Shown one piece after another: positions 2,944 through 61,132 of a stretch of 64,000 bases of DNA. Numbering within the stretch: the first letter of the stretch is position 1; each line of letters begins with the position of its first letter. The position numbers were made by a program, and so were the translations under genes. Origin of the DNA: Narthecium ossifragum (lineage: Eukaryota; Streptophyta; Magnoliopsida; Dioscoreales; Nartheciaceae); the NCBI GenBank assembly GCA_963920575.1, contig OY986964.1, positions 18,231,987-18,295,986 of the forward strand, given 5' to 3'. The notes beneath the pieces were generated by a model that was not told the DNA's origin, did not search any database, and saw nothing but the letters and a program-made list of their open reading frames with translations.

Positions 2944-3026
2944 GATTGATCTTTCTTGCTAAGGAGATCGATCTTCCTTGCTAAGGAGATCGATCTTCCT
3001 TGAGAAGAAGATCGATCCTTCTGTGG
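2944..3026. repeat. TCGA-centred palindrome cluster in the A1 5' LTR
   Basis: There are four copies of GATCGATC or GATTGATC, two of them in a 22-bp tandem unit with the spacer CTTGCTAAGGA. The palindrome is AGATCGATCT. The 3' LTR carries the same cluster at 7012-7092. It starts about 275 bp from the LTR 5' end, where other A copies carry different palindromes. Confidence 0.9.
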
Positions 3027-3099
3027 CAGAAAGTTTTGACGGTGGAGTTGAGAGGACGGCCGCCGTTGGCCGTCGCTCTCCCCTGTCAGAGGGAGAGAG

Positions 3100-3245
3100 G
3101 ACTTTCTCACCTCTCCTCCCCCTTTTCCCCTCCTTCCCCGGCTTTCCCCCTTCCTTTCGTTCTTCTTCTTCCTCTTCTTCTTCTCCTTCTTCTTCCTCTT
3201 CTTCTTCTCCTTCTTCTTCCTTCTTCTTTCTTCTTCCTGCGAGCT
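3100..3245 (+). repeat. Pyrimidine-rich (TTC/CTT)n tract
   Basis: A long C/T-rich stretch in the A1 5' LTR, mostly TTCTTC and CCTC units. It is repeated at 7180-7300 in the 3' LTR and as A/G-rich sequence in minus-strand copies (11930-12060, 40190-40370, 56105-56285). The long open frames across it are low-complexity artefacts. Confidence 0.85.
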
Positions 3246-3984
3246 CTGCTTCCCTTGTTTTTCTGGCTACCTTCTTCTTCTCCGTTCTCCCTCCTTCGGC
3301 CACCGTTTTGGGCGTTCCAAAGCTCATTGGATCCGTGGCGACATGAGGAAGATCCCTGGTGTGGTTTGGAGCTTTGTTGGTGATTGGTTTGCAGGGAATC
3401 AGCCGAGGAGTACGTTTCGGGTAGGTTTCTACCTACGAGAGTTATTTTTAGGTTTTCTCTAGATCTAGCCGTTAGATCTTCTTGTTCTTTATGTTATTGG
3501 CTTCCTCTTACTTAGTATAATTTCTGGTTTAAGTTTCATAAGCTTTGGTTGAGATTTTAGTAGGATTTAAGCATGTTTAATCTGGGATTTTTCGGTTTCT
3601 ATTGTTCTTGAAGAACAGCCGGTTTGCGGTGAGTTTTTCGGTGGGTACATGCATGTTCTTGGGTTATGATGAACATAGAGTGATAGATCTTTAAATCTAC
3701 TCTCAAACCCAACTGATTTCATAAATTTCTGATTTTCCTACGATTTGTTATGAATTCCATACTGGTGGGCTGCGTTGCAGCAAGTAATGGTAAGTTGGTT
3801 TGATTAGCGGTTTTGATTAGTGTTTTCCCGTTAATCTAGCTGTTGGAGGTTTCTCCATTTTGGATATGTTGATCCCGGTATGTTGATCTACTGGTGTCTA
3901 AGTTGGATCTCGAATCCGACGTCGTTTGGATGTCGGCTCGACGGGGTCAATTAGTCTCTAAGTAGAGGATTTTTGGTGATTTAA

Positions 3985-4017
3985 ATAATATTATATGTTC
4001 GAAAGATATAATATTAT
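3985..4017. repeat. AT inverted repeat in LTR A
   Basis: ATAATATTATAT (3985-3996) and ATATAATATTAT (4006-4017) are perfect reverse complements around a 9-base loop. The same structure occurs in other A copies near 10560-10592, 39461-39492 and 55941-55972. Confidence 0.85.
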
Positions 4018-5146
4018 ATTTTACTGTTCATCGAGGTTTTCGGGGTTCCTTCCCGTTGCAGGAGTCCGTGGTTGGCGGTCACAGTACCGTCGTAATACCG
4101 AGACCCGCTGCGGATCGGCTGGCAGCGGTTGGTAGTACCGCTGCAGCGATGCGGTTGGACTTGTATGCTGCCTTATCATACTGTTGCATGCTTATCTCTT
4201 ATCTTGTGTATGATCATAGCATGCATTCTCTGTTGTGCATTAGTTGCATGGTTAGGGCATGGGTGATCTGTGGGTTGCCATCCCAAGGCTTGAAGCTCGG
4301 ATTTAGCCCTAGGACCGGGGTTGGGTAGTTTGGACCCGGTTCGAATCGTGGTGTCCAGTCAAACTTGATGATAGGCCTAGATGACTGGTATACTTGTTGT
4401 TTGATAATTGTAGAGGTCGTGTCGGCCTCAAGTCGGATGCGTAGGTGTAGCCGGTGTTCCACTGTGACGACTCTTGAGTAAAAGGAGTTGCTTACTCAGC
4501 GGTGTCATTTCTCGCCTACAGTGCCGTTCCCTGCTTGTGAGTCTACAGTGTTCTTTTCTGCTTACTGAGTGTGACCCGACATGTGACCAGTTCTTCTGGA
4601 AGACCATGATCGTATGATCTCAGGGACAGGCAGTGGGGTTATGGGACCTCTGTATACACCCAGGTCTTACTTGAGGACGACACTCTTGCGTTTTCCTCTT
4701 CCTTCTGTGTGATGTAGTGTAGAACATTACTGAGCTTTATGTTCACTCCTACCCAGGCTGCGTTTTTCTGGTGCAGGCGTCAGTTCTTCTTCTCTGGCCC
4801 CTACCGGGCAGTTGGTCGGCGGTGCGGCGGCACCAAGCGGAAACTGAGAGGTGGTGATCCTTTACTGCTTTTATCCTATGTTAGATTGTCTCTCACGGGA
4901 GTAACGTTGTATTTGAATCTTCCCCTCTCCGAGGATATGTATATTAAATTCACTTGGGTTTTGTAATCTGTGGTTCTAGGCTTGTAATTTAATTATGTTT
5001 TTTAAATTGAGAGTGTTTTGATGAATTGCTAGGGAGACCAATAGGTTAGAGGGAACCCTCGCCAATATTTTTTTTTCGCGTTTCGTTAGGTTCCTGTTCG
5101 CGTCACCCGCCCCGGTTGGGCTTTCACGGGTCGGGGCGTGACAGCT

Positions 5147-6735: not shown

Positions 6736-8241
6736 CGTGAGGACCTATCCCTCTACTCCTGGGTCGACCGGCTGGGTCGAACCCGTTGCTCGTTTGATTT
6801 GTTTCGTGTCGAGCGCGCGATCCGGTGGATCACATTGTTTCTTGGACCGCAAGGGCAATTTGGTAAATTGCGCCTTGTTGGTTGTTTCACACCCGCCTGT
6901 GCACACACAGACCTTGTTTGGTGTTAGTGTTTGATTAGAATAGTTAGGTGGACCTGAGATCGGAAGATTCGAGCTTGGGCTAGTGTTTTAGCCCAAGTTT
7001 GTGTTTCTGGGCAAGAAGATCGATCTTTCTTGCTAAGGAGATCGATCTTTCTTGCTAAGGAGATCGATCTTCCTAGAGAAGAAGATCGATCCTTCTGTGC
7101 CAGAAAGTCTTGACGGTGGAGTTGAGACGACGGCCGCCGTTGGCCGTCGCTCTACCCTGTCAAAGGGAGAGAGGACTTTCTCCCATCTCCTCCCCCTTTT
7201 CCCCTCCTTCCCCGGCTTTCCCCCTTCTTTTTCTTCTTCTTCTTCCTCTTCCTCTTCTCCATCTTCTTCCTTCTTCTTTCTTCTTCTCGCGAGCTCTGCT
7301 TCCACTGTTTTTCAGGCGACCTTCGTCTTCTTCGTTCTCCCTACTCCGGCCACCGTTTTGAGTATTCCAAAGCTCGTTGAATCCGTGGCGACGTGAGGAA
7401 GATCCATGGTGTGGTTTGGAGCTTGGTTGGTGATTGGTTTGCGGGGAATCAGTCGAGGAGTGTGTTTCCAATAGGTTTCTACCTACGAGAGTTGTTTTTG
7501 GGTTTTCTCTAGATCTTGTCATTAGATCTTGTTGTTCTTTGTGTTGTTGGCTTCCTCTTGCTTAGTATAATTTCTGGTTTAAGCTTTATAAGCTTTGGTT
7601 GAGAGTTTAGTTGGATTTAACAATGTTTAATCTCAGATTTTCCGGTTTCTACTGTTCTTGGGTTTTGATGAACATAAGAGTGGTAGATCTTTGACTCTAA
7701 TCTCCAACCGAACTGATTTCATAATTTTCTGATTTTTCAACGATTTGTTATGAATTTCTTACTGGTGGGCTGCGTTGCAACAAGTAATGGTAAGTTAGTT
7801 TGATTAGAGGTTTTGATTAGTGTTTTCCCGTTAATCTAGCCGTTGGAGGTTTCCCCATTTTGGATATGTTGATCCCGGTATGTTGATCTACTGGTGTCAA
7901 TGTTGGATCTCGAATCCGACGTCGTTTGGAAGTCGGATCGACGGGGTCAATTTGCGAGGACCCGTACCTCCAACCCGGTCCGACCGCGTTAGGTCGAGGG
8001 TTTGGGTTTGTGGTTTGGCCCTGTTGGCCTTGGGATGCGATCGGTTGATTGCATTGCTATTTTTGACCCCAGTGGTATTTTGGTAAATATGCTCCCTGGT
8101 GGTCAGTTTCACACCCGCGTTACACACACGGCCTTGGATTGATGTAAGTGTTTGAGTAGAACCTTAAGGGCGCTTCCGATCGGAAGATCGGAGCTCGATC
8201 GGGAGAGATCGAATCGGACGGCTGTGATCGATTCCAACTTT

Positions 8242-8796: not shown

Positions 8797-9105
8797 GACG
8801 GTCGATCGGTGGATCAACCGTCAAGCGTTAATACGCTTCTTTCGGGCCTAACGGTCGACCGTCGGATCGATCGTCGGGCTTTGTCGCGATTTTGGCCTCC
8901 CATGACCGATGCCCAGATCGACCGTGGTTCCTTCTCCTTTTTCATTCCGTCTCACAGTCGACCGTCGGATCAACCGTCGCATCGTCCGTGAGGCTCTGTC
9001 CTGTTTTGGGCTTCATACGGCCGATGTGTCGATTGACCGTGACCCTTATGGTTTCCCTCTTTTTGGTCTCACGGTCGACCGTCAGATCGACCGTGGGCCC
9101 TTGTA
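8797..9105. repeat. TCGACC palindrome array in the solo B LTR
   Basis: Dispersed copies of CGGTCGACCGTC, GGATCGATCG and CAGATCGACCGT; the best unit is the 12-bp palindrome ACGGTCGACCGT. Equivalent arrays lie at 38158-38331 and 56736-56803 (B 5' LTR split by A3), 60135-60450 (B2 LTR) and 34822-35096 (E, minus). Confidence 0.85.
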
Positions 9106-11724: not shown

Positions 11725-12515
11725 ACCAAGAGCACCCAAATCTATCTGCCAGTTTAAGAGAAAACCTATATTTAACCCATGTAGGAAGAAACCTACCGCA
11801 CTAAGCAAATCTCAACTGAATCCCCACTATTCGAGCAATAAATCGGCTTCAAAGCAAGCTACGGGTCTTCCTCACGCTGCCACGAATCCAATGAGCCCTC
11901 AAGCACTCAATTTGATGGCCGAAGGAGGGGAACGGAGGGAAGGAAGGATGCAACCGGAACAGGGGAAGGAAACCAGAGCCGCGGAAGAGGTAGAAGGAAG
12001 AAGAAGAAGAAGAAGAAGAAGAAGAGAGGGGGAAGGAGAAAGAGGATAAGGGAGAGGAGAGAAGATTTTTCTTCTCACCTCTGACAAGGAAGAGCGACGG
12101 TCAATGACGATCGTCCACTCAGAAAAGCCACCGCCTTACTCGACGGTCGACCGCCAGATCGACCATCGCCCAAGTTGGTTGGTCGACTCGATCAACCACG
12201 ATCGATTGAGCGATTGACCACCAACGGTCAACCATCGCCCAGAAGCTGAGAGACTGTCCTATCGACCAGCTGTCACACCCAAACTTGGATCCAGCTGTCA
12301 CACCCAAACTTGGATCCTCAGATCCCAAGCCCACCTAGGGTTCTAGCAAACATGGAAACCAAACAAAAGGGGTTGTGTCTTCACCACGCGGGTATGAAAC
12401 AAACCGACAAAGTCCAATTTACCAAATTGTCATTGCGGTCAACAACGAGCCACAGGCCCGACCCAGGTGGTCGACCCAGGTGGTCGACCCAGGAGTAGAG
12501 AGGCAGGTCCTCACA
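11725..12515 (-). repeat. 3' LTR of A0, proximal part (LTR start)
   Basis: It continues the LTR split by A1 and ends with CCTCACA (plus strand), the complement of the start TGTGAGG. It includes an A/G-rich tract (11930-12060), a GGTCGACC-type palindrome cluster (12140-12285), a tandem copy of CAGCTGTCACACCCAAACTT (12267-12315) and a doubled GGTCGACCCAGGT near 12470-12490. Confidence 0.9.
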
Positions 12516-14437: not shown

Positions 14438-14804
14438 GAGCGATGGCCAACGGCGACCGTCCACTCAGAAAACCCACCGCCTTACTCGATGGTCGACCGC
14501 TAGATCGACCGTCGCCCAAGTCGGTAGGTCGATCGAGCGATCGACCACCAATGGTCAACCATCGCCCAAAAGCTGAGAGACTGTCCTATAGACCAGCTCT
14601 CGCACCCAAACTTGGATCTTCATATTCCAAGCCCACATAGGGTTCTAGCAAACATGGAAACCAAACACAAGGGGTTGTGTGTGCAACACGCGGGTGTGAA
14701 ACAAATCGACAAGGCACAATTTATTAAATTGCCCTTGTGGTCCAAAACGAGCCACGGGCCCGACCCAGGCGGTCAACCCAGGAGTAGAGGGGCATGTCCT
14801 CACA
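14438..14804 (-). repeat. 5' LTR remnant of A0 (367 bp)
   Basis: It aligns with the start of the A0 3' LTR (about 12090-12515), including the GGTCGACCG palindrome zone and the terminal CCTCACA. TSD CAATC follows at 14805-14809. Only the first part of the LTR remains. Confidence 0.88.
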
Positions 14805-16615: not shown

Positions 16616-18125
16616 TGATAAATAAATTTTATATCTCACAAGTATACGAATCGGTGCAATCAGTATAGTAGCAAGACGAGTATCGTACCCACAGAGATTT
16701 GTAAAGATTATTAGAGTGAAACGCTAAAGAACAGAAAAGAAAGAAAATAAGGAAGGGAAAATAGGAATATGAAGTCTCGAAAATAGATGATCTAATAACG
16801 AAATAAGAAAACGATGGAAATATGATGGATGAATACTAAGGTTCCGATTTCACCATAACATCCTCATTCTATGCATTGAATCAATCAATATCTCAGTTTA
16901 ATTCCAAGGGCTCGCTCTTCCGGTATGATGATCTGTTCGATCGCGGTCTTCACCAAGTACCCTCAATTAACCCTAGCTAATAAACCCATATCTAAGGATC
17001 AATCAAGAATCCATTAAGATCTGAAGAACAATTATGAACCAAGAAGTGTCTTAGCTTGAACCCGGCTTCGACTAAATCTCATTCATTCATAGATCCTGCA
17101 AGATTAGGGAATGAACCATCGCCCAATCTCTCATAAAACAATCTATAATACTTCTATTGGCCAGATAAACGTATTTAAGATCTCAGTTATAATAATGAAT
17201 GAAACTAGGAAAATAAACTGATTAAATAATCATGATCCAATAACATAGAATGATTCAGTTAGGCTACATCGGTTCCTTAGCAAAGGTATTAGCCACTCAT
17301 GTTCATAAAAACAACCAAGATATTCATACGAAAGATAAGAAAGAAAAACCCTAGATATTCATGCGGTCTTCTCCCCTCTTTCCGGCCTTCAAAACTCCTC
17401 CAATAGTGCTGGCTAACCTCCTTCAAAAGTCTTGGACGACTTCCTTAAATAGGTGTAAGAAACCCTAACTTTGCTTCAACTTTTGGATTAAATCTGGTCC
17501 GTTCGTTTTCAGGTCGTCCGACAAGAGATCGATCTTCTTTAGGATAAAGATCGATCTTCTTTCTTTTCACAATTTTCGTAACCTGGTTCGCCCCGACTAA
17601 GATCGATCTCTTTAAGGATAGGATCGATCTTCTTTCTCCTTAGACTAGGCTCCTTCCAACACGCCCAGGTTCAGATCGATCTTTTCAAGGAAGAGATCGA
17701 TCTCTTTCATCAATTGTTGACGACGCCCACAAAGGATCGATCTTTCAAGTAAAGAAGATCGATCTTTTATTTCGTGCATCTTTCTTCAGCTATTCTGCCC
17801 TGCGCACTGGTACGAAAAACACTGTAATTTCCTCTATGCATCTCCAAATCACGAACCGTAAAATTCTCCAGAAACTAGACTTCAAGAGCTTTCCAACCAT
17901 ATATGGCCCATCATCTGGTTATTCATGAACAGGTACAGTTTAATCTTTCAAATTGATTCATGTAATCTTTTCAGCTTCTTTGCTCCTTTTTCCTGCATTT
18001 TCCAAACAACTATGTGAAGCAACATATAAATATAAAAATAGTAATAAAGATGTTGATTAAGGATAATAATCTAACAATTGAGATGGTTATAAGGCTATTC
18101 AGAGTGCACTTTCATGCACTCATCA
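16616..18125 (-). repeat. 3' LTR of D (1510 bp)
   Basis: The plus strand starts TGATAAATAAATTTTATATC and ends CATGCACTCATCA. It carries a GATCGATC cluster (17523-17772) and a TATA-like CTATTTAAGG on the minus strand near 17448-17458. Confidence 0.92.
17523..17772. repeat. Palindrome cluster in the D 3' LTR (AAGATCGATCTT type)
   Basis: Seven GATCGATC copies, mostly within A/T-flanked AAGATCGATCTT or AGGATCGATCTT, directly upstream of the TATA-like box (minus strand). The D 5' LTR has the matching cluster at 32124-32375. Confidence 0.9.
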
Positions 18126-20914: not shown

Positions 20915-21238
20915 TAGACGGATCGATCCCTTCCCAAGGGAAGGATCGATCCCTCTAATGGCAGAGAGCAAACTCTCCATATCGTGCCGAGTCCGATCGA
21001 TCCGTCCTCCCAGGACGATCGATCCGACTCGCGATAGGGAACATCCTCCCTGCCACGCCAAGGAGGATCGATCCCTCCCTCCAAGGGTCGATCGATCCTA
21101 CTCGCGACGAGGGGATCCCATGCTACCCAAGGCACAAGGATCGATCGCCCCCACCCGGGAAAGATCGATCTGGCTCGGGTTCAGCATGATCAACAAAGAA
21201 GGATCGATCCATCTCACAGACGTATCGATCGCGTTGGC
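20915..21238. repeat. Palindrome cluster in LTR A4, distal
   Basis: About ten GATCGATC cores spaced 20-40 bp apart, mostly as GGATCGATCC or CCGATCGATCCG, some as inverted pairs around CCCAAGGG or CCTCCCAGG. It is much larger than the A1 cluster. Confidence 0.9.
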
Positions 21239-21597: not shown

Positions 21598-21785
21598 GCA
21601 GGATCGATCCGTCCAAGGAGACTGATTGATCCAGCAAAGAGAACAATCGATCCAGCCAAGAGACCGATCGATCCTTCTCTGAGTCCGATCGATACGTCCC
21701 AAGAGACCGATCGATCCTTCTCAACGATCCATCTTCCGGGCATTGAACGATCGATCCTTCTAGCAAGGAAGGATCGATCCCTCTT
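21598..21785. repeat. Palindrome cluster in LTR A4, proximal
   Basis: Eight or nine cores (GGATCGATCC, CCGATCGATCC, AACGATCGATCC) about 206-393 bp from the LTR start. This is the position that carries AGATCGATCT in A1, GCGATCGATCGC in A3 and GGTCGACC in A0. Confidence 0.9.
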
Positions 21786-38328: not shown

Positions 38329-38333
38329 GTGGC

Positions 38334-42057: not shown

Positions 42058-42067
42058 CTATAAAAGG
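42058..42067 (+). promoter_or_regulatory. TATA box of LTR X copy 1
   Basis: CTATAAAAGG in the context TTGTGCCTATAAAAGGAGG; copy 2 has it at 50973-50982. Transcription should begin about 30 bp downstream. Confidence 0.75.
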
Positions 42068-43739: not shown

Positions 43740-44163
43740 GAGCGATCCTCCGATCGATCGGACTACGCAAAAACGTGACAGAACCTATTTTTTTTGGCTG
43801 AACGAAGTCCAATCGATCTCTCCATCACTCCAAAGAAGTCCGATCGATCCGACACCAATGGTCCGATCGATCGGACTCGGGAAAAGCCAAAAACAGCTGA
43901 TTTTTACTCAACCGATCGATCCAACACTCATAGTCCGATCGATCGGACTTGGGAATTAAAGGTTGACAGAACGTATGCTTTTTAGAGGAGCAGAGTTCGA
44001 TCGATCCGTCCATCGATCGGACTCAATAATAGCTAGAGAAGATGGATTTTTACGCATCCGATCGATCCAGCGCTTATAGTTCGATCGATCGGGCTCGGGC
44101 GAAGCCAGGAATTGATGTTTTTAATGAGACGGATCGATCCAACACCTAAAGTCCAATCGATCC
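43740..44163. repeat. Palindrome cluster in the C 5' LTR (CCGATCGATCGG type)
   Basis: About ten cores. Four are CCGATCGATCGG, and 43932-43949 is an 18-bp perfect palindrome, AGTCCGATCGATCGGACT. It sits just upstream of the TATA box. The 3' LTR carries it at 49070-49494, with single-base differences such as GGACATGGG for GGACTTGGG. Confidence 0.93.
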
Positions 44164-44214
44164 TACGTTTCCAGTGAATTAAATCAACGATTTTGATTTA
44201 ACCCGAGTTTAGGC

Positions 44215-44224
44215 CTATAAATAG
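44215..44224 (+). promoter_or_regulatory. TATA box of the C 5' LTR
   Basis: CTATAAATAG, about 50 bp after the last palindrome core. The 3' LTR copy is at 49546-49555. Confidence 0.8.
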
Positions 44225-45055
44225 GATACTTAGGGTTATCAAAAAGGACTTTTGGAGGACTTTTTGGCAGCGTTTGGAGGCGAAGAGAAGGGTTCCAGGC
44301 TTGGTTTTCTTTTCTTATTTCTTCTTTATTTCTTCATTAGTTTTGTTGCCCTCATGGTGAACATGAGTGGCTAGTTTCTTCTCTAAGGTACCGATGTAGC
44401 CCTAACTGAATCATTCTATGTTATTGGATTATGATTATTTTATCAGTTTATTTTCCTAAATTTATTCATTATTATAACTGAGATCTTAAATACCTTTATC
44501 TGGCCAATAAAAGTATTATAGATTGTTTTATGTGAGATTAGGCGAGGGTTCATTCCCTAATCTTGCAGGATCTATGAATGAATGAGTTTATGTCGAGGCC
44601 GGGTTCAAGCTAAGAGTATTCTTGGTTCATAATTGTTCTTCAGAGCTTAATGGATTCTTGGTTAACACTTAGTTATGGGTTCATTAGCTAGGGTTAATTG
44701 AGGGTACTTGGTGAAGACCGCGGCCGAACGGATCATCATACCGGAAGAACGAGCCCTTGGAATTAAACTGAAATCTTTATTGATTCAATGCATAGAATGA
44801 GGATGTTATGGTGAAATCGGAACATTAGTATCCATCCATCATATTTCTATCGTTTTCTTATTTCGTTATTAGATCTTCTATTCTCAATACTTCATATCTC
44901 TTATTTTCCCTTTATTATTTTCTTTCTTTTCTGTTCTTTAGCGTTTCACTCTAATAATCTTTACAAATCTCTGTGGGTACGATACTCGTCTTGCTACTAT
45001 ACTGATTGCACCGATTCGTATACTTGCGAGATATAAAACTTATTCATCAAGTTTT

Positions 45056-45073
45056 TGGCGCCGTTGCCGGGGA
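45056..45073 (+). promoter_or_regulatory. C primer-binding site, exact tRNA-Asp complement
   Basis: TGGCGCCGTTGCCGGGGA is an 18-base match to the 3' end of plant tRNA-Asp(GTC), CCA included, as I recall that tRNA. It lies six bases after the LTR end. Confidence 0.88.
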
Positions 45074-45098: not shown

Positions 45099-47516
45099 AT
45101 GCAAGGTCGCCGATCACGGAAAGAAAAGTTGTTGCCCTTGAACAATACAGTAGATCAAATTGGTTGGAAGAAAAGATCTAACAAAGACAGCCTGTCCACA
45201 TCAGATCTAGGAGTTCAAGAGGAGGAACAAGAGGAGATGGCGCTCAATAATAATTTATGTCCTTTGGTGGAGTACGCGAGGCCAACTATTTCTACCTCAC
45301 CTTCGTGCATTGCGTTACCTGCAGAGGCTAGGAATTATGAGCTTAAAAATCTACATTTTTCTATGCTTCCTGAATTTCATGGTTTACCTTCTGAGGATGC
45401 ATTAACTTTTGTGAAAGATTATTATGCTACTATTCAGACTTTTCCTCTATGTGGCATTACTGAAGATCAATTGAGGATGCGATGTTTTCCTTACACCCTG
45501 AAGGATAAAGCTAAGAGATGGTTGATGTCGTTGCCTCCTGGATCACTCACTACTTGGGATGCAATTTATAACAAGTTTGTTAGTAAATTTTATTCTCATG
45601 CCATGACTACTAACTTGAGAAGGCAAATTCCAAATTTGCAGCAATCTGATGGAGAACCATTCCATGAAGCATGGGATAGATTTAAAATGCTTTTGATGCA
45701 ATGTCCACATCATAATTATTCTTTAGAAAATCAGATGCAATATTTCTATGATGGATTAAATCTTTCTTGTCAGACTATGGCAGATAATGCTGCAGGTGGA
45801 GCGATGTTCAAAAGGACACCACCGGAGGCATATGAAATCTATGAGATGCTAGGATCAAACTCGCAGCAGAGGGACACGAGGAATAAGGCGAGAGGCATCT
45901 ATGAGCTGAACCAGAATGATGACATGGCAAGGCAAATCGCAGCCCTCAACAAGAAGATGGACGCGATGATGTCCACACAAGCAAAACCGGTTGAGGTTTG
46001 TTCAATTTGCAATATTATTGGTCACAGGTTTGATTCATGTCCTTCTGGTAGTGAATTTCCTGAATATGTGCAAGAACAAGCTAATTTGATGAATGCTTAT
46101 AACCCGAGACCTAGATTTGACCCTTATGCAAATACTTACAATCCTGGTTGGAGAGAACATCCGAATTTTTCATGGAAAAATAATGCTAATCCTAGTATGC
46201 CTTCTGCTAATCAGTCTAACTCACCTGTTAAGTCGTCTTTGGAAGCGACTATGTTAGCTTTTATGCAGAAAATAGACTCAAGGATGGAACAACAAGATTC
46301 AACCATTGCTCGACAAGGTGCAGCCATTGCTCAGCATGATGCGGTACTAAAGAACGTTGCAGCATCCATTGAGAAGTTGGAAGTTCAAGTAGGACAGCTT
46401 GCAGATGCTGTACGAGCCCATGTTCCAGGCAGATTTCCAAGCCAACCAGAGCAAGCCAACGCAGTTACTAGTCTTCGTTCAGGTAAGATTATTGATAATA
46501 AAATTAATGCTGAAGTTATTGATGAGTTAAATGATGATGCAAGTGAGGAAGTTGAAAAGGAGGAACGCTCGAAAAGGCCACCATCGGCCACATCTGCTTT
46601 TGATCATGAAAAGAGAGCAAATTCAGTTCCGGAGGTTCATCACAACTCTCCTCCACCATATGTGCCGCCAATTCCGTTTCCAGGCCGCCTGAAGAAAGCC
46701 CAAATGGATAAGTCATATTCTGAAATTTATGATATTCTATCTAAGGTTAATGTGAACTTACCATTGCTTGATGTGATTAGGAAAATACCAGCCTTTCCAA
46801 AGTTCTTCAAGGAACTACGTACTTCTAAACGTAAGTATGAACCTCATGAAAAGGTGATGGTTTCAGAGACGGCAAGCGCGGTTCTACAAAGGAAGCTTCC
46901 ACCTAAGCTTAAGGATCCAGGGAGTTTTAATATTAATATTACTGTTGGGGATACAAAAATAGGGGAGGCAATGCTTGACTTAGGAGCTAGTGTTAATTTG
47001 ATGCCTTACTCTGTTTTCCTTCAGCTAGGTGTTGGTAAATTAAAACCTACTACGATGTCTCTACAACTTGCAGATCGTTCAATTAAATATCCATTAGGCA
47101 TTGTAGAAGACATCTTAGTACAAGTTGATAAGTTAATTATCCCTGCTGATTTTGTGATATTGGATATGGATGATGCACCATTGAATGATAGAAAATTGCC
47201 TATTTTGTTGGGACGCCCATTTATTGCTACAGCTGATACTAAGATTAATGTGAAGGATGGTAAGCTCAGCATGACAGTTTTAGGTGAAACTATTGAATTT
47301 AAAGTGTTTGAGTCTATGTCATATCCTTCAAGCTCTTTTGATTGCTTCTCAATAAATGCTGTAGATTCATTGGTGTTCTCTAATTTCAGGCAGGAGCAAG
47401 TGAAGACTACATTGAAAGCGGATTTGAAGATGGTGCAGAATGACTTGCATAGCTATAAGAGAGCACAGGAGGTTGTCGCACCGCTTGAAGCATTACAACC
47501 ATACGAACCTGGCTGA
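45099..47516 (+). CDS. gag-pro: Gag-protease polyprotein of C, 805 aa, intact
   Basis: It starts MQGRRSRKEKLL, 26 bases after the primer site, and runs to a stop after ALQPYEPG. The Athila-type capsid region spans about 75-260 (LKNLHFSMLPEFHGL, DKAKRWLMSLPPG, TTWDAIYNKFVSKF, EAWDRFKMLLMQCPHH). The zinc knuckle is C301/C304/H309/C314. A Gln/Ala-rich coiled-coil-like link (about 380-450) follows. The aspartic protease has D627 in LDLGAS and ILLGRP near 702-707. There is no pol after it. Gag would form particles around the RNA and protease would mature them; reverse transcription and integration would come from elsewhere. No frameshift or stop, unlike D. Confidence 0.95.
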   Translation: MQGRRSRKEKLLPLNNTVDQIGWKKRSNKDSLSTSDLGVQEEEQEEMALNNNLCPLVEYARPTISTSPSCIALPAEARNYELKNLHFSMLPEFHGLPSEDALTFVKDYYATIQTFPLCGITEDQLRMRCFPYTLKDKAKRWLMSLPPGSLTTWDAIYNKFVSKFYSHAMTTNLRRQIPNLQQSDGEPFHEAWDRFKMLLMQCPHHNYSLENQMQYFYDGLNLSCQTMADNAAGGAMFKRTPPEAYEIYEMLGSNSQQRDTRNKARGIYELNQNDDMARQIAALNKKMDAMMSTQAKPVEVCSICNIIGHRFDSCPSGSEFPEYVQEQANLMNAYNPRPRFDPYANTYNPGWREHPNFSWKNNANPSMPSANQSNSPVKSSLEATMLAFMQKIDSRMEQQDSTIARQGAAIAQHDAVLKNVAASIEKLEVQVGQLADAVRAHVPGRFPSQPEQANAVTSLRSGKIIDNKINAEVIDELNDDASEEVEKEERSKRPPSATSAFDHEKRANSVPEVHHNSPPPYVPPIPFPGRLKKAQMDKSYSEIYDILSKVNVNLPLLDVIRKIPAFPKFFKELRTSKRKYEPHEKVMVSETASAVLQRKLPPKLKDPGSFNINITVGDTKIGEAMLDLGASVNLMPYSVFLQLGVGKLKPTTMSLQLADRSIKYPLGIVEDILVQVDKLIIPADFVILDMDDAPLNDRKLPILLGRPFIATADTKINVKDGKLSMTVLGETIEFKVFESMSYPSSSFDCFSINAVDSLVFSNFRQEQVKTTLKADLKMVQNDLHSYKRAQEVVAPLEALQPYEPG

Positions 47517-48708: not shown

Positions 48709-50380
48709 TGATGAGGGCATGAAAGTGCACTCTAAATAACCTTATAACCATCTCAATTGCTAGATTATTATCTTTAATCAACATCTTTATTCCTATTTTT
48801 ATATCTATATGTTGCTTCACATAGTTGTTTGGAAAATGCAGGAAAAAGGAGAAAAGAAGCTGAAAAGAGTGCATGGATCAACTTTAAAGATTAATTTGTA
48901 CCTACTCATGAAGAATCAGATTTTGTACCATATATGGTTGGAAAGCTCTTGAAGTCTAGATTCTGGAGAATTTTACGGTTCGTGATTCCGAGTTTCCTAG
49001 AGGAAGTTACGGCAATTTTAGTACCGATGGCGCAGTCTGAATGGCAGCACAGTAAATAAGCTGGAAACCCGAGCGATCCTCCGATCGATCGGACTACGCA
49101 AAAACGTGACAGAACCTATTTTTTTTGGCTGAACGAAGTCCGATCGATCTCTCCATCACTCCAAAGAAGTCCGATCGATCCGACACCAATGGTCCGATCG
49201 ATCGGACTCGGGAAAAGCCAAAAACAGCTGATTTTTACTCAACCGATCGATCCAACACTCATAGTCCGATCGATCGGACATGGGAATTAAAGGTTGACAG
49301 AACGTATGCTTTTTAGAGGAGCAGAGTTCGATCGATTCGTCCATCGATCGGACTCAATAATAGCTAGAGAAGATGGATTTTTACGCATCCGATCGATCCA
49401 GCGCTTATAGTTCGATCGATCGGGATCGGGCGAAGCCAGGAATTGATGTTTTTAATGAGACGGATCAATCCAACACCTAAAGTCCGATCGATCCTACGTT
49501 TCCAGTGAATTAAATCAACGGTTTTGATTTAACCCGAGTTTTGGCCTATAAATAGGATACTTAGGGTTATCAAAAAGGACTTTTGGAGGACTTTTTGGCA
49601 GCGTTTGGAGGCGAAGAGAAGGGTTCCAGGCTTGGTTTTCTTTTCTTATTTCTTCTTTATTTCTTCATTAGTTTTGTTGCCCTCATGGTGAACATGAGTG
49701 GCTAGTTTCTTCTCTAAGGTACCGATGTAGCCCTAACTGAATCATTCTATGTTATTGGATCATGATTATTTTATCAGTTTATTTTCCTTGATTTATTCAT
49801 TATTATAACTGAGATCTTAAATACATTTATCTAGCCAATAAAAGTATTATAGATTGTTTTATGTGAGATTGGGCGAGGGTTCATTCCCTAATCTTGCAGG
49901 ATCTATGAATGAATGAGTTTATGTCGAGGCCGGGTTCAAGCTAAGAGTATTCTTGGTTCATAATTGCTCTTCAGAGCTTAATGAATTCTTGGTTAACACT
50001 TAGTTATGGGTTCATTAGCTAGGGTTAATTGAGGATACTTGGTGAAGACCGCGGCTGAACGGATCATCATACCGGAAGAACGAGCCCTTGGAATTAAACT
50101 GAAATCTTTATTGATTCAATGCATAGAATGAGGATGTTATGGTGAAATCGGAACCTTAGTATCCATCCATCATATTTCTATCGTTTTCTTATTTCGTTAT
50201 TAGATCTTCTATTCTCAATACTTCATATCTCTTATTTTCCCTTTCTTATTTTCTTTCTTTTCTGTTCTTTAGCGTTTCACTCTAATAATCTTTACAAATC
50301 TCTGTGGGTACGATACTCGTCTTGCTACTATACTGATTGCACCGATTCGTATACTTGCGAGATATAAAATTTATTCATCA
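48709..50380 (+). repeat. 3' LTR of C (1672 bp)
   Basis: Starts TGATGAGGGC, ends TTATTCATCA. Palindrome cluster 49070-49494, TATA box 49546-49555. The next ten bases (AGTTTTTGGC, 50381-50390) equal the first ten bases after the 5' LTR, not a TSD. Confidence 0.93.
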
Positions 50381-50390
50381 AGTTTTTGGC

Positions 50391-52700
50391 ACAGAAATCG
50401 CGTCGCCATGCGTCGCGCTTAAATAACCAAACCGAAAGGGTATTTTGGTCATTTAACCCCAAGGGGCATTTTAGTCATTTTACACCTTCAGGGGTGTGAA
50501 AATCCGGAACATAGATATTTCATCTGCGCCAGAGACATTTCGATCCAAAATATATGGCCGATAAAAAGGATATTTTGGTAATTTACACCCGGCTTGTCCG
50601 GGGATATTTCAATAAATTTTCCAAAGTATTATATGAAATATCGAAATTAGAATTTAAATAAGACATTTCAAATATCCGACTAATTCGACAATTATTCAGA
50701 TAATTCAAATCTGAACATTTGAATTTCAAATTCGAATTTCAAAACAAAATGTCTACCCATATAAAATCAGCCAAATCAAATATATACCATACCATATGAG
50801 AAATCAGCATATTCAATTATGGTGGGATTGCATTCCCATACCATATAAAAAAAAATCAGCATCTCTAAATATGGTGGGATTATATGAGCTAGCCTTATAT
50901 AAAAGGATTAGCATCAATTAGTATCCCTTAATCAGGATTCTCCATCCCATATTAAGAGATCACCTCTCGTGCCTATAAAAGGAGGAGGGTGAAGGCTGGC
51001 TGAGTGGTTGGCAAATGGAGGGAGAAAAGGCCAGCAAATTGAAAGAGATAAGGCTGACAGAAAGGGAGGAGGAGGATCGACCGCGGACGCTCAAGCAAAG
51101 AGAAGATCTGGCGCACCCTCATCCAGGAAGCTCCGTCGCCATCACCGGCGCCCACCTTGCTCAAGCCTGAGGACCTCTCCGACGAGGCCCTCATCCCCAA
51201 CCTCGGCTGGCAAATAAAGGAAGGAAGGATCGGCTGGGGAAATAGCAAAGAAGCAGAGAAAGAAACAAAGGCCGGAAAGAAAGACAAGTCAAAGAACAAG
51301 GAGGAGAGAAGGCCGACGGGGAGAGAAGAAAGGAAGAGAGGAGGAGCGGCGCCATCGCAGTCGCCCACCTTGCTCAAGCCCGAGGACCACCCTCGCCGTC
51401 GCCGTCCGGCCTGAGGATCTCCGCTCCAAACCCAAAGGCGTCTTCGCCGCCGCTGCCCAACCAGAGAAACCCATCGCCATTCTTCATCCAACCCACAAGC
51501 TCGTTGGAGGCTTGAAGACGAAGAGGTTCTGGTGACGTTCCAACGTTACGCACCACCGGACGACGTAGATCCCGCCAACGCAGCCGGAACCCATCGAGAC
51601 GCTCGCGTCTCTGGGTCGACGCTGTAAGAGGCTCGTTGATCCCGCGACTCAAGCTCCACTCTCCTGCTCGCCCCGTGGCCTAGACCTCAAGCAAGGTGCT
51701 CTAACCCGCTTCCTCGATGTTCACGGAGATCGGCCCTACTCTCCCTCGTCTCCGACAGCTTCAAAAGACAAAGCTTCCTCTGTTTCCCCTGTTCCAGCTG
51801 ACAGAAACCAAAGGAGCTCATTGCCCAACCAGAGGAACCCATCACCGTCGTCGTCCTTGATCCAGTCAAGAGTACCGTCGTCGTCATCCTCTGTTCCAGC
51901 CAGTAGAAACCAAAGACCCCATCGCTGTCATCCAGCCGGAGGAACCCAAACAAAGCCGTCGCCGGCCCAAGGAGGGAGTCCCATCACCTTCCTCAACCCA
52001 AAGAAACCTGTCGCCGTTCTCGAGCCATCCGTGAAGCGTGAAGCATACCTCCAGCGAGGTCCACGCCGCGGTTTCTCCTGCCTCCGTCCATCTCAAAGCT
52101 TGGACGCCTCTTCAACTCGATGGCCGTCCGCAGCCTCAAGCGCGCGGCATCAAGCCTACACCCAACAAGATTCTCCCCCCTTTCCAGTAACCAGCACGAT
52201 CAACACAAGGACTTGGTGAACAGCGGAGCTCCATCCCCTCTGCTCGACGTGCGGCCTAGCTTTGACGCGTGAACAACACAAGCTTCGATAGTCCAGCTTC
52301 GACGCGTGAACAACACAAGCTTCAACGGCCCGGCCTTCGACGCTCGGACGACGCTTTCCCTCTTCCAGCTGGTACATCTTCACGACAACAATTGGACCTT
52401 GGACGGCTCTTCCCAAACTCCGGCGGACTTGAAGTCTCGGCGACAAAGATATCCTGCATGGCAGTGAACGTGGTGGTCCAAGACCTCACGTCATTCCATT
52501 TTCCTTTTATTATTATTATAGGAAAATATTTATTTTTATTGGATCTAGAATCGGGGGTGTTCCCTACGGGGATGTAAATGATGGATCTGCCGACTTGGCG
52601 ATCGGCAAATCCAATTTCCTGAAATGAAATTAAAATATGATTTGCTCGGAAATAAAATAGAGACCTCGTCCCAACGAGATCGACGTTTTATCCACGAACA
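50391..52700 (+). repeat. LTR X, copy 2, without an insertion
   Basis: It begins at the equivalent of 41477 in copy 1 and runs through the site where C interrupts copy 1 (CTTCGATAG, then TCCAGCTTCG, near 52280). It continues to a probable LTR end CACGAACA at 52700. TATA box 50973-50982. ORFs here (for example minus 50973-51491) are leader artefacts. The next bases (ATGAG) belong to A3 reverse transcriptase. Confidence 0.82.
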
Positions 52701-54807: not shown

Positions 54808-56705
54808 TGTAACGCCCCGGCCCTCCACTGGGCCCCGGCCCGCGAAAGGCCAACCGGGCCGGGCGACGCGAACCGGAACCTACAAAACGCGGAAAACAAA
54901 GCTGGCGAGGGTTCCCTCTAACCTATTGGTCTCCTTAACAGTTCACCAAAAGCACCCCCAATTAAAGATACAACATTGATTAGCAAAACCTCGAACCACA
55001 GATTTAAAACTCAAAGTGTTAAATATACATATCCTCGGAGAGGGGAAGATTCAAATACAACATTACTCCCGTAGGAGACTAACTAACATAGGGTAAAAGC
55101 AGTAAACGATCACCACCTCTCAAAGTCCACCAGGCGCCACCGCACCGCCGACCAACTGCCCGGTAGGGGCCACAGAAGAGGAACTGACGGCTGCACCTGC
55201 AAAACGCAGCCCGGGTAGGTGTGAACACTAAGCTCAGTAGGGATCTACACTATGTTACACAGAAGGAAGAGGAAAACACAACAGTGTCGCCCTCAAGCCA
55301 GACTCGAGTGAGCTACAAGGGTCCCATTACCCTTCACCAGTGATCTCTAGGCATATCCAACCATGGTCACCCCAACGGACTGGGCCCATCCTAGATACGC
55401 CTAGTGTCGCAGGGTGCCAGCTGTGGTCACCCATCACGGACTGGGCCCACACTGATCCCCTACTGGCAGGAACGGACACTGCCCAAAGAATAAGACCCGC
55501 CACCGGTGGCATCCTCAACACCTGACTTGAGGCCGGCACGACCTCTACAATCATCAAGCATCATGTGTACCAGTCCTCTAAGCCTATCATCGAATCGACT
55601 GGACACCACAATTCAAACCGGGTCCAAACCACCCAACCCCGGTCGTAGGGCTAAGTCCGAGCTTCCAGCCTCGGGACGGCGACCCAAAGATCACCCACGC
55701 CCTAACCAATGCAACTAATGCACAAAACAACAATGCATGCTATGACATACACAGATAAGAAGGAAAGCATGCAACAGTATGACAAACATCATATAAGTCA
55801 ACCGGATCGCTGTAGCGGTACTACCGACCGCTGCCAGCCGATCCGCGGCGGGTCCCGGCATTACGACAGTACCGCGACCGTCGACAGCGGACTCCTGCAA
55901 CGGGAAGCAACCCCGAAAACGATGATGAACGATAAACAAAATAATATTATATTCCGAAATATAATATTATATTCAAAACTCTCAAAGCCTCTACTTAGGG
56001 GCTAACTGATCCCTCACAACCAGTCACCAACAAGCCTCCAAACCATACCAGGAGTCTTCCTCTCAATGCCACGGATCCAACGAGCCTTAGAACACCCAAT
56101 TTGATGGTCGGAGGAGGGAGAACGGAAGAGAAGAAGCTTGCCGGAGAAGGAGAGAAAACAGAGCCTTCGGGTGAGGAGAAAGAAGAGGAAGAAGAAGAAG
56201 GAAGGGAAGGAGAAAAGGAGGAAAGGGGGGAGGGGACGGCCGGGGGAAGGGGGAAAAAGGCGAAGGAGGGGAGGGAAAGTCCTCCCCTTCTGACAAGAGA
56301 GAGCGACGGCCAACGGCGGCCGTCCTCGCGAAACAGAAAAGCCACCGACGCGATTCTGATCGATCGCTCCAAGGAGCGATCGATCGCACGCGCCCCGGAT
56401 CGATCCCAACACCAAGTCAGATCGATCCGAGCGGGTCAAATCCACGGACTCGCTCACGAGTCTGATCGATCGTTCCGAGGAGCGATCGATCGCTCAAGGG
56501 TCGTCAGCTGCCCAAAGGCAAGCTTCCGCGCGCCCGAGCTGGGATCTCCCGATCCCGGGTCCACCTAGCCACTCTAAACAAATACTAACACATACAAGGT
56601 CAGTGTGTGCACACGCGGGTGTGAAACAAACCAATAAGGCGCAATTTACCAAATTGCCCTTGCGGTCTACAACGAGCCATAGGGGTAGAGGGGCAGGTCC
56701 TCACA
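54808..56705 (-). repeat. 5' LTR of A3 (1898 bp) with an internal deletion
   Basis: It matches the 3' LTR (38334-40768) but lacks about 552 bp. In the 3' LTR, TGATCCC occurs at 39528-39534 and 40080-40086; here only one TGATCCC remains, near 56007. Palindrome cluster 56354-56494. It ends CCTCACA at 56705. Confidence 0.92.
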
Positions 56706-56710
56706 GTGGC

Positions 56711-58237
56711 CCTTATGTTTCCCCATGTTTTTGTCTCACGGTCGACCGTCGGATCGACCGTCGCATCGACCGTGGCCTCACCGTCGACCGTCGCATCGAC
56801 CGTCAACCCCTGAATAGTGTTTTCTGGCTTCCTTTGATTGGTTTCTCGTTCATGATAGATACTCAATCATGTTAGGGAACATGCATGATGTTATGGAGGG
56901 ATTTTCAATGGATTTCTATCGAGTTTGGGAAATTGAATCGTGTGTTTATCTTTTTGGTGGATTTATGGGTGGACTTGTATTCAAATACTTGGTTGGATAG
57001 TACTTTAAATGCTTAATTGGTTGCTTAGTCATTAGCTAGCTATGAATGCTAGCTAACGTTGAATTGTGGAACCTTAACCTGATGCCGGTGTGTGCCGAGG
57101 GCTATTGTATAACTGTTGGCAAGTTACCTGCGGGGTAACTGTGGAACCTTAGTCTGTCAGGTGCAAGAGAGCACTGAAGACTATTGTATAACTGTGTTTA
57201 CCGTTTGGCTCTAATCATTGTTTGGTTAGTATAGATTATCTGTATTTGAGGCCCTTGCTATGCTCACCTCTTTGGCTAGCTGCAGGCTATGCCTAGCCCT
57301 GTATGATTATTGTCATATTGTTGCATCCCTATATCTCATTATCTGTGCCTGGGCATTGCATTCATCTTGTTTGCATTAGAGGCATATCAGGTTAGGCGGG
57401 CGATGGGTTGATCGCCGATCCGAGGCTCTCGGGTAGCTCGGATCTAGCCTTAGAACCGTGGCTGGGTAGTAAGGATTAGGGCGTGATTGTAATTGAATCT
57501 CATGTTGTTGAGGATTTGAGGTAGTTGACTATGATCAATGCTTTGAAGTTTAGAGGTCGTGTTGTCTTCCCAAAGCTAAGTTCTAAGGATGGATGTCGAT
57601 GCATTACCGAACATGGGTCCCCAAGGCATGGGAATCCTGCTTGGTTAAGGGTGATCCTGCATATTACTGTTACATGGCCTCCTGGTAACTTGTTCAGGAG
57701 GGGTTTCATAGCAGGAGCCCTTGGGACATCGACAGGGGTGGTGGAACCCCGTGGTATTCCTTAGGCTTAAGCGGGGAGACAACACTGTTGTTGTTTTCCT
57801 CCCTTCAGTGTCCCGTAGAGTAGAACCCTACTGAGCTTATTGCTCACTCCTACCCGGGCTGCGTTTGCAGGTGCAGGCGCCAGTTCTTCCTCAGTAGAGC
57901 CGGCGGGATCAGCTTTTGGCGGCGCGACTACGTCCAGAGGTTGCTGCCGGACGACTGTTGTACTTTTGATAGTTTTGTATATTATAAACATCTTCGAGGA
58001 TCTTTTTGGATTATTGTATAATATCTTTCCCTTGGTGGAGTTTGATAAGAATTTTGTATCAGATGTTTAAACAGTACACCTTGATGTATTTATAAATTGA
58101 ATTACATATTACATCTGGAATATAAATTCTTTAAATTTATCTATGTTTTCCGCATTGTATCGCGCCAGTTGGAGATGAATAGTGATATGAACCCTCATGC
58201 CTCGTCCTGAATAGGTTTTTTGGGTCGGGGTGTGACA
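56711..58237 (+). repeat. B 5' LTR, second part
   Basis: It continues from 38328 after the TSD. It has a TCGACC array (56736-56803), hairpin train 57038-57190, U5 block near 57825-57880, and end GGGGTGTGACA at 58237. Confidence 0.92.
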
Positions 58238-59305
58238 ACTTGGTATTAGAGCAGGCTGTAGGTCCCAGGGATAGGATTAGGCTTACGGTTAAGGCTTTGA
58301 GTGTGGAATGGGATAATTCTAGGTCTAGAACATCATTGCTTGTCTGTTTGCGATTGCGTGTGAGGTGTTTATTTATCTGTTTGCTGTTGTGCTTTGTTGA
58401 TGTCCGGTTGCGTCATGACGTCTCAGGGGGAGATGTGCATGCGCGCCAGTCACGTCCGTTCCCTCGCCTGACAGCGTCTCCCCCCGTGCTGGAGACGACC
58501 GAGTAGGGATTGGGAGTGTGTTACCTCTGTGCTCTTGGAATCCCAAGAGGTGGACCCGTTGTGGTCCAGAGGCGATGTTTGAGATCCTTCGATAGTAGAG
58601 GACTGATTGAAGGAGGTTACCCGGATCCCGGATGTTTGGGACATCCTGGAGTATCGCTTGCTTGAGAATCTGTTGTTTTCTTGCCTTCCCAGGAAGCGAT
58701 TCGTAGTGCCGCTTATCGGGGCCACTAGGGACACTGTTGGTTGTGTGTTGAGAATAGTTCGCATGTTGTTCTCTGGCACCTACCCTTGGAGGGTGGTGTA
58801 GTTGGGAGTACCCTCCTCTGGTTCTGGGTACTCGCACCACGTGGCGACATGTGGATTGGCTGGCTCATCTGGTTTGGTATGCTAGAGCGACAGCAGGGTG
58901 CAACCTGGACTGTGCGCTAGCTAATGAGATAGGTGACTTGAGAGTTGACACCGGGCAGTTGGTCGGCGGTCGTGGTGAGTTACGGGGTTGTCGTTCCTGC
59001 TTCTGGGGAATGGCAGGGTGGCCGTTGGTAGAGACAGTGGTTTCAGCATCAACGACAGCCATGGCAGCAGCAGCGTCGTGCCAGTTCTTTGAGAGGTGAC
59101 CTGGGCCACCACACTGAGAGGGATTCCACCGAGTGCTCAAGTGTTAGACGCCAGGTACCTTTCCGCCGACGGTGCTCGTGGCGCCTCGCGGCCGCAGAGC
59201 GGCCAGGCCTGGCACACGACGTGGGGCAGAGCAGTGGGTTGATACGTCAGTTGGGGTAGATACCTGGGGCAGACGCAGGAATTCAGATTCCAGGTAGAGG
59301 CTAGC
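58238..59305 (+). pseudogene. gag: B primer site and heavily decayed gag
   Basis: TGGTATTAGAGC (58241-58252) is an initiator-Met-type primer site with one change. No long frame follows. A damaged zinc knuckle can be traced near 59078-59140 (CQFFER, then after a one-base shift DLGHHTERDSTEC), with two Cys replaced and the frame broken. The rest is unrecognised. It ends at CTAGC (59301-59305), where a second B LTR begins. Confidence 0.55.
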
Positions 59306-61132
59306 TGTGAGGACCCGTACCTCCAACCCGGTCCGACCGCGTTAGGTCGAGGTTCTGGGTTTGCGGTTTGACCCGGTTGGCCTTGGGATGCGATCGGTTG
59401 ATCGCATCGCTGTTTTAGACCCCAGTGGCATTTTGGTAAATATGCTCCCTGGAGGTCAGTTTCACACCCGCGTTACACACACGGCCTTGGATTGGTGTAA
59501 GTGCTTGAGTAGAACCTTAAGGGTGCTTCCGATCGGAAGATCGGAGCTCGATCGGGAGAGATCGAATCGGACGACTGTGATCGATTCCAGCGTTCTATTT
59601 AAGCTCTTCTCCTTTCTCCCTCTTTTCTTTCTTCTTCTCCTGCCGTTCTCTTTCTCTCTCTCTCCAACCGGCGGTGCTAGGGCTTCGGAGCGCGGCTTTC
59701 GAGGAGCGGATTTCCGCGATCGGAGTTGGGGGATGCGTAGAGGAGCTACCCTGCTCGATCAAGTAGGTGTTTCTACCTCGATCTTATGATCGGGTTCTCC
59801 TAGGATAGGTTTATTGTGCTTTTGTTGTAGGAATACATGTTAGAATGTTATGTAGCTTGTAGCACATGTGTTGTGGCTTGTTTCAAGTATTCCTACCTTG
59901 CGATTTTCGTATTTTAACGGTTTGTTTCCGTATTATCGTCGTTTTATCGGTTTTCGGCCATTAAGACCTAGGTTTGAGATTTAACCATCAAAATCATGTT
60001 TTAATCATACCATTAGCTTCCCCATCATATTTTACACCTGCTTGCAAAGTTTCATCAACTTCCAACTTGATTTGATCATCCAAATCCAAGAAATTGGATG
60101 TCCGGCACTGTTCTGAGGAACTGTGCCGTGGGGCTGACGGTCGATCGGTGGATCTACCGTCAAGCGTTAATACGCTTCGGGCCTGACGCTCTGTCGCGTT
60201 TTTGGCCTCCCACGTTCAATGCCCCGATCGACCGTGGTTCCTTCTCCTTTTCATTTCGCCTCACGGTCGACCGTCAGATCGATATACCGATCGTCCGTGA
60301 GGCTCTGTCCCGTTTTAGGCTTCCCACGGTCGATATACCGATCGACCGTGACCCTTATGCCTTTCCCTCATTTGACCCCCACGGTCGACCGTCGGATCGA
60401 CCGTGGCATCAACTGTGGCCTCACGGTCGACCGTCGCATCGACCGTGGGCCACTGAGCTGTGTTTGCTGGTTTCCTTTGATTGGTTTTCATCCATGATAG
60501 ATACCCAATCATGTTAGGAAGCATACACGTCGTTTTCATGGGATTTTCGAGGGATTTCTATTGATATTGGGAATTGAATTGGGCGTTTGTCTTTTTGGTG
60601 GATTTATGGATGGATGTGCATTTAAATACTTAGTTGAATGATATTTTGAAATGCTTATTGTTGCTTAACCGTTAGCTAGCTATGAGTGCTAGCTAATGTG
60701 GAATTGTGAAACCTTAGCCTAATGCCGGCGTGTGCCGAGGGCTATTGTAGAAATATGGGCCAGTTACCTGTGGGGTAACTGTGGAACCTTAGTTTGTCAG
60801 GTGCAAGATAGCACTGAAGACTATTGTATATCTGTGTTCAATGCTTTGCTCTAATCATTGTTTGGTTAGTATAGATTATCTGTAATTGAGGCCCTTGCTA
60901 TGCTCACCCCTTAGGCTAGTTATAGGCAATGCTTAGCCCTGTATGATTATTGTCATGTTGTTACGTGCCTGTATCTCGTTATCTGTGCCTGAGCATTGCA
61001 TGCATCTTATTTGCATTAGAGGCATATGAGGTTAGGCGGGCAATGGGTTGATCGCCGATCCGAGGCTCTCGAGTAGCTCGGATCTAGCCTTAGGACTGCA
61101 GCTGGGAAGTCAGGATTAGGGCGTGATTGTTT
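59306..61132 (+). repeat. Second B LTR (B2), truncated at its 3' end
   Basis: Starts TGTGAGGACC and aligns with the solo B LTR up to GCGTGATTGTTT (61121-61132), then stops matching. GATC cluster 59526-59586, TATA-like CTATTTAAG 59595-59603, TCGACC array 60135-60450, hairpin train 60676-60835. No polypurine tract precedes it, so it is not the 3' LTR of B but an insertion or a rearranged copy. Confidence 0.85.

Follow-up and report, generated by a model that had tools for sequence, protein, structure and literature searches.

What could make retrotransposons whose long terminal repeats (LTRs) do not match one another carry arrays of palindromes with the same centre? The question is raised by a stretch of 64,000 bases from Narthecium ossifragum (contig OY986964.1, positions 18,231,987 to 18,295,986), which we call the window and which consists of nested retrotransposon DNA of a flowering plant. 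Self-comparison of the window gave the LTR families A, its relative B, C and D. The A/B group of LTRs and the C/D group are mutually unmatched in this comparison, yet the same palindromic core, GRTCGAYC, is in excess in both. In our best reading the arrays would evolve modularly as promoter-proximal dyad sites, and we lean, with some reserve, towards regarding them as cis-regulatory sites putatively bound by a dimeric, most likely host-encoded protein.

The palindromes and their common core

Is there more than chance in these palindromes? The expectation was taken from Markov simulations of order 1-3, 40 each. The window has 96 TCGA-centred palindromes of 8 bp or longer, where the simulated means are 18-24, and 28 of 12 bp or longer, where they are 1-2. 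Palindromes with other centres lie near or slightly over expectation (242 against 211-247 at 8 bp or more, 72 against 53-63 at 10 bp or more). A simple chance origin is thus rejected, and the arrays are a real, non-random feature. An earlier description of this DNA, the original prediction, had named particular palindromes; these are present where it placed them.

What stays constant is GRTCGAYC and not just TCGA. There are 106 exact sites in the window, namely 67 of GATCGATC (1-6 expected), 19 of GGTCGACC (0.6-2 expected), 13 of GATCGACC and 7 of GGTCGATC. As many as 96 of the 106 fall within 18 stretches that make up 4,538 of the 64,000 bases; since these stretches were drawn around the sites themselves, the figure describes clustering and is no independent test. 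The stretches lie in LTRs of the Ty3/gypsy groups A/B and C/D and, in one case, in a leader. In 30 additional sites the centre seems to have decayed at its CpG, so the earlier statement that the TCGA centre never changes, besides giving the constant part too short, is partly true by definition.

Then could the excess come from the laboratory? GATCGATC is named as the ligation junction of proximity-ligation (Chicago) libraries in the available text of PMC5288721, which suggests an assembly or library artefact. However, the arrays in the two LTRs of element C, at 43749-44163 and 49080-49494 (both on the plus strand), hold their sites in register and are identical at 438 of 446 positions. The linkers are specific, the spacings of 22 and 73 bp recur, and GGTCGACC types are present as well. 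The in-register arrays of paired LTRs and the structured linkers rule this origin out, and we give it practically no credence.

Probable replacement of array modules

Do the arrays change as units, as the original prediction had it? The clearest case is the pair C and D, whose LTRs are 1.5-1.7 kb long. Element C has LTRs at 43380-45059 and 48711-50390 (98.3% identical), the latter being its 3' LTR, and its first array is of the CCGATCGATCGG type with a TATA box at 44216. Element D is on the minus strand; its LTRs lie at about 16616-18125 and about 31264-32727 (93% identical), and its interior is split by what look like later insertions. Its first array (17523-17766, minus strand) has four doublets of the AAGATCGATCTT type and a TATA-like box at 17452, and its other LTR holds the second array (32128-32366, minus strand). 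The LTR flanks of C and D are identical at 277 of 309 positions on the left and 622 of 667 on the right (90-93%), and their interiors match at 87-95%. Between these flanks lies a differing module, at about 43698-44375 in C and about 17288-17805 in D. The array within it gives 244 matches in 505 columns, where shuffled sequence gives 227 with a standard deviation (s.d.) of 3.3, and promoter plus leader give 128 matches against 114 (s.d. 3.1). In-place divergence at the rate of the flanks cannot yield such a module; joint replacement of array, TATA box and leader is the simplest account. Judged from these alignments, it is well supported that the three were replaced as one unit, with much faster in-place change of that one segment a less likely alternative. 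Because some similarity is left in the module, its source was probably a distant relative. Note that all statements on replacement concern a single window with few independent arrays, and that p values are given uncorrected.

The arrays of family A tell a less simple story. The LTRs of this family are about 2.4-2.5 kb long and begin with TGTGAGGACC. Four arrays were compared: A1 (2944-3018, plus strand), with units of about 22 bp of the AAGATCGATCTT type, within the LTR at 2668-5143; A3 (40434-40572, minus strand), of the GCGATCGATCGC/GGATCGATCC type, with 6 sites of which one has a decayed centre; the upstream array of A4 (21601-21780, minus strand), with 8 sites including imperfect ones and a TATA box at 21579; and A0 (12140-12267, minus strand), of a GRTYGAYC type at the A-array position. 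Between A1 and A3 the flanks are 86% and 74% identical and the array 45%, with 72 matches against 68.4 in shuffled sequence (s.d. 2.8). A1 and A0 give 66 matches against 65.9, with weaker flanks of 70% and 62%. Two of the six array comparisons exceed shuffled sequence (A1-A4, 86 against 76.9, s.d. 2.5; A3-A4, 116 against 102.8, s.d. 2.8), one does so slightly (A3-A0, 93 against 88.7, s.d. 2.8), and three do not. With the cores masked, A1 is clearly related to the upstream array of A4 (reached by 0 of 500 shuffles) and weakly to A3 (p 0.03). By these alignments the arrays of family A change far faster than their flanks, through replacement or turnover. Because the linkers of different A arrays keep a weak similarity, fast turnover in place is possible in this family.

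Near copies give the opposite picture. A2 (7016-7092, plus strand) is of the A1 type, in an LTR that starts near 6736 and is interrupted by the solo LTR B1, and A5 (56357-56495, minus strand) is a near copy of A3. The arrays are identical at 95 of 99 positions in A1/A2, 147 of 153 in A3/A5 and 273 of 286 in the two LTRs of D, which together with the C pair gives a range of 95-98%. Near copies thus retain their array, so that arms are inherited within a subfamily and not exchanged copy by copy. A shorter relative of A0, A6, lies at 14490-14560 (minus strand). As a separate observation, an inverted repeat, GACGGCCGCCGTTGGCCGTCGC, is found just downstream of A-type arrays (about 3055-3076, 7129-7150 and 40380-40401); A1, A2, A3 and A5 share it unchanged and A0 and A6 have a diverged form, although the arrays change.

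Are cassettes also exchanged between unrelated families? When A arrays are set against those of C or D, cores masked, p over the eight comparisons ranges from 0.004 (A1-D1, where C1 and D1 are the first arrays of C and D) to 0.84. It is 0.02 or lower in four of the eight: A1-D1, A4 upstream-D1, A3-D1 and A3-C1. In three of these four, high scores also come from the reverse-strand control (p 0.010, 0.038 and 0.012), and only A3-D1 passed it (p 0.88); for C1-D1 the masked comparison gives p 0.33. Since the control is high, and shared purine/pyrimidine arms would suffice, these values were not counted as evidence of exchange. The cassette exchange that had been proposed was set aside on this weak signal, most of which fails the strand control.

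Architecture of the arrays and candidate functions

If the arrays are binding sites, how are the sites arranged? Arms, linkers, spacing and pairs were tested on six arrays: A1, A3, C1, D1, the upstream array of A4, and a second A4 array further downstream (about 20915-21230, minus strand) with doublets 22-24 bp apart repeated about every 73 bp. Set apart from these tests were A2, A5, A0, A6, the second arrays of C and D (C2 and D2), all five B arrays and a small cluster at 33.3 kb. Gaps of 20-24 bp separate 26 of 42 neighbouring sites and occur in all six arrays, which are of the GATC type. In C, D and the downstream A4 array the sites form doublets with a period of 72-74 bp. Helical phasing is good in A1, A3, the upstream A4 array and D (mean cosine 0.73-0.85). 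A TATA-like box follows the last core centre at 26 bp in the upstream A4 array, 57 bp in C and 78 bp in D; for A1 and A3 no TATA-like match was found in the stretches scanned. It had been claimed that a cluster ends just before a TATA box in B, C and D; this holds in C and D but not in B, and A4 was missed.

The reading as dyad sites draws its main support from the core being kept as other parts of the array change, in two unmatched LTR groups; promoter proximity in three array types and the recurring spacing add to it. Tandem or paired dyad sites with the core GRTCGAYC would then be the cis-regulatory "repeated motif" boxes of Ty3/gypsy LTR retrotransposons. A dimeric DNA-binding protein, or a family of them, most likely encoded by the host, would bind the core and may help to drive or tune transcription from the LTR, activation being the presumed effect. 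Replacement would have come about through recombination or template switching, with tandem homogenisation afterwards. A bolder scenario, to which we assign a rather low probability, is that one host dimeric factor (or small family) acting on GRTCGAYC gives unrelated LTR lineages of this plant a common entry to transcription, perhaps across Ty3/gypsy and Ty1/copia elements in eudicots, with arm specificity changed by swaps of whole modules.

How far does the palindromy reach beyond the core? At the first position outside it the arms are complementary in 24 of 39 sites against 12.8 expected, a value matched by none of 5,000 shuffles across arrays. Position 4 gives 25 against 19.1 (p 0.008), and positions 1-4 jointly give 79 against 56 (p 0.0002). 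Taken singly, positions 2, 3 and 5-7 fail to reach significance, with position 8 on the margin (p 0.05). Shuffling the right arms within their array removes the excess (79 against 81). Thus each array has its own loosely palindromic arm type, and individual sites show no co-variation. Nor do all units agree within one array, as had been asserted: A3 holds four unit types (GAGCGATCGATCGCTC, CGATCGATCG, GGATCGATCC and GCGATCGATCGC), and the flanks in C are mixed too. Exact GATCGATC occurs 9 times in C1, 8 in D1, 5 and 9 times in the two A4 arrays, and only 3 times in A1 and 5 in A3.

Such symmetry could also serve an RNA. The arrays may act as RNA or single-stranded hairpins in which pairs of sites form stems, either with a function of the RNA itself or as substrates that the host recognises and dices into small RNAs. 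Predicted folds of nine array segments are more stable than those of their dinucleotide shuffles (40 each), with z from -2.6 to -8.3, where seven control segments range from -1.9 to +1.7; however, any palindrome would give such stability. The linkers show self-complementarity (90 against 66, s.d. 4.4), clearly in four A arrays and not in C or D. CTTG occurs in 13 of 26 linkers against 1.6 expected, in the same orientation (CAAG 0 against 0.7); these linkers belong to the A arrays and D, with 0 of 4 in C. In maize Sireviruses, small RNAs are in excess on palindrome-cluster regions according to the available text of PMC10760457. Against hairpins, the pairs show no co-variation of their own: inner arms match at 66 of 130 positions against 64 after within-array shuffling, and outer arms at 64 against 62. 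For want of a pair-specific signal the doublets were rejected as co-varying hairpins. No Rfam family matches any array at gathering score; the scan of the window gave only two matches, both to snoR71 and neither on an array. On balance we regard hairpins as an unlikely explanation of the arrays.

Several results weigh against the dyad-site reading. Between near copies the cores changed at 8 of 240 positions and the other positions at 199 of 4,748 (p 0.6), and the CpGs at 4 of 30 in cores and 40 of 205 elsewhere (p 0.6); the latter comparison, which could have pointed to hypomethylation or selection, gave no difference, at low power. A literature search on the core GRTCGAYC found no binding factor. 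Helical phasing is almost absent in the downstream A4 array and in C (mean cosine 0.13 and 0.15), of the eight arm positions beyond the core only 1 and 4 are clearly complementary, and the second A4 array lies downstream of the TATA box. So do the arrays of B1 (8800-9093), B3 (38165-38329) and B4 (60139-60445, all on the plus strand), about 540-850 bp beyond a TATA-like box; in B1, with its box at 8242, the distance is about 560-850 bp. The scan for TATA boxes in B covered these three copies, not B2 and B5; in B3 and B4 a lone ATCGAT stands upstream of the box.

Could turnover alone, with no function, have built the arrays? Slippage and template switching might create and homogenise palindromic units, and palindromes are targets for template switching. 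The units are indeed tandem, similar within an array and common to near copies; the linkers of different A arrays retain their weak similarity, and the cores enjoy no special preservation between near copies. But neutral turnover leaves the recurrence of the same 8-bp core in two unmatched LTR groups unexplained. Site-level correction moreover predicts co-variation within sites, which is absent (79 against 81 expected). Site-by-site correction of palindromes, with co-variation at the array average, is unsupported. We consider neutral turnover improbable, in much the same degree as hairpins, and hold to dyad sites.

The remaining arrays fit into the inventory as follows. B arrays pair CACGGTCGA with TCGACCGTG in facing orientation, at a distance of 12 bp between core centres, and the units of B1 are like CACGGTCGA-N8-TCGACCGTG; B2 lies at 34822-35089 (minus strand) and B5 at 56738-56809 (plus strand). 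A small cluster of GATCGATC at 33302-33372 (plus strand) falls in what is presumed to be the leader of a further element fragment, which takes the motif beyond LTRs; a sequence resembling a primer-binding site, GGCACCGTTGCCGGGG, is found upstream at 33035. Neither this cluster nor the second A4 array figured in the original prediction. The ratio of observed to expected CpG is 0.78-1.68 in seven arrays and 0.54-0.84 in four LTR remainders; six of the seven arrays are CpG-rich, and A1 is lowest, under the 0.84 of the window.

Host elements and comparison with known systems

What kind of elements carry the arrays? Retrotrans_gag (PF03732) was found in C, and many of the listed relatives combine PF03732 with PF17917/PF17919. 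In family A, Retrotrans_gag lies in the interior between A1 and A2 and SH3_Tf2-1 beside the LTR of A0. We take these domains to mean Ty3/gypsy, and by their domains the array-bearing elements look like members of that group. The finer names Tekay-like for A/B and Athila-like for C/D are presumptive labels suggested by LTR ends and primer-binding sites. In element C one long frame was seen, which contains gag and, slightly below the cut-off, a protease match; no extra protein was recognised in the element. Among the 120 of 249 matches listed, the best relatives of its gag frame come from Prunus, Ipomoea, Cuscuta and other eudicots with 50-57% identity over most of the length, and a few have higher identity over about 1/4 to 2/5 of it. 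No relative of the frame was confirmed in viral and prokaryote contigs, and one stretch of LTR A1 gave no match to plasmids.

Some observations concern the neighbourhood of C and D. A 1.9-kb sequence occurs at 41475-43376 and 50389-52291 in the same orientation (96.5% identical), abutting both LTR ends of C, as though the insertion of C had hit the boundary between two tandem copies or had produced a very long target duplication. Nested in D, at 22269-27795, is an element whose LTRs are 566 bp long and 96.6% identical and whose gag-pol frame is open over 1386 residues. This LTR pair (22269-22834 and 27230-27795) has no palindrome array, so an array is not a feature of every LTR here. The two snoR71 matches (RF00097) above gathering score lie at 30607-30714 (plus strand) in D and at 45612-45717 (minus strand), antisense within the gag frame of C; this snoRNA family may contain retrotransposon gag sequence.

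Have such arrays been described before? The original prediction knew of no LTR feature of this kind, but one has been published: the available text of PMC2829016 reports palindromic repeated motif (RM) boxes in 13 Sireviruses, with at least 8 copies starting 200-400 bp into the LTR. There the RM boxes form CpG islands, followed by a TATA box at a mean distance of 37 bp, and their arms are element-specific around a CGG-CCG signature that is absent in Tnd-1. The same text proposes a regulatory role, left untested there, and calls RM boxes Sirevirus-specific and absent from the classic retrotransposons of its Ty1/copia set. Its Table 3 gives CGGTCGACCG for a grapevine element and the TCGA-centred ACAATCGATTGT for Tnd-1. 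The former occurs 11 times in the window, 10 in arrays and one outside at 23292, and the latter 0 times. The CGG-CCG signature is found in the palindromes of B and A0 (CGGTCGACCG) and lacking in those of A1 and D.

Both systems have multi-copy LTR palindromes with dyad symmetry, element-specific arms and a shared core, concentrated in the upstream LTR half; several array types here also end a short distance ahead of a TATA box. In start and TATA position, A4 upstream, C and D fit the RM boxes; A1 fits in position but has no TATA-like match, and A3 has neither such a match nor an LTR start that was found. Unlike the Ty1/copia hosts of RM boxes, the elements here look Ty3/gypsy, for which reason the arrays are not RM boxes in the strict Sirevirus sense, and their main core is GATCGATC. 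Doublets in C, D and one A4 array, a TATA box upstream of the array in B and in one A4 case, and two near-identical elements with different modules also set them apart. By analogy, the arrays resemble Sirevirus RM boxes and probably work like them. Palindrome clusters were followed up in maize Sireviruses, and Bousios et al. (2016) is reportedly the source cited for the statements on them. These clusters are small-RNA hotspots in the available text of PMC5311732 and PMC10760457, and evolve rapidly in that of PMC5311732.

What is new here is the Ty3/gypsy hosts, the core GRTCGAYC common to two LTR groups, and the module swap between C and D. That swap has a parallel in the Tnt1 superfamily, which belongs to Ty1/copia. 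As far as the available text of PMC1838419 goes, variation there is targeted to U3 and the subfamilies are otherwise extensively similar, as in C and D, where a U3-type module differs between otherwise near-identical elements. The word "palindrome" is missing from the main text of that paper, which had many copies to compare where we have one clear pair. Tandem repeats in U3 of retroviruses and Tnt1 are also mentioned in the available part of PMC3601003. No arrays of this kind in Ty3/gypsy LTRs were found among the listed titles and abstracts of open-licence papers.

A further known system suggests another explanation, in which a VANC-like anti-silencing protein targets the arrays and the motif arrays co-evolve with it. 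VANDALs, in which VANC is known, are DNA transposons and not LTR elements, which counts against it. Their target motifs are, like the arrays here, tandem and different between relatives, with units diverging together, according to the available text of PMC5735166 and PMC10398659; the same texts give a known, element-encoded protein and the motif YAGTATTAY. In C no extra protein was recognised, and the interiors in the window are partial or broken. We think this explanation highly improbable. If instead one host factor binds the shared core, unrelated retrotransposons would have converged on the same switch or exchanged it, and C and D provide a natural pair whose LTRs differ chiefly in the promoter module. 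The idea of RM boxes, put forward for Sireviruses in 2010, would then extend to Ty3/gypsy elements.

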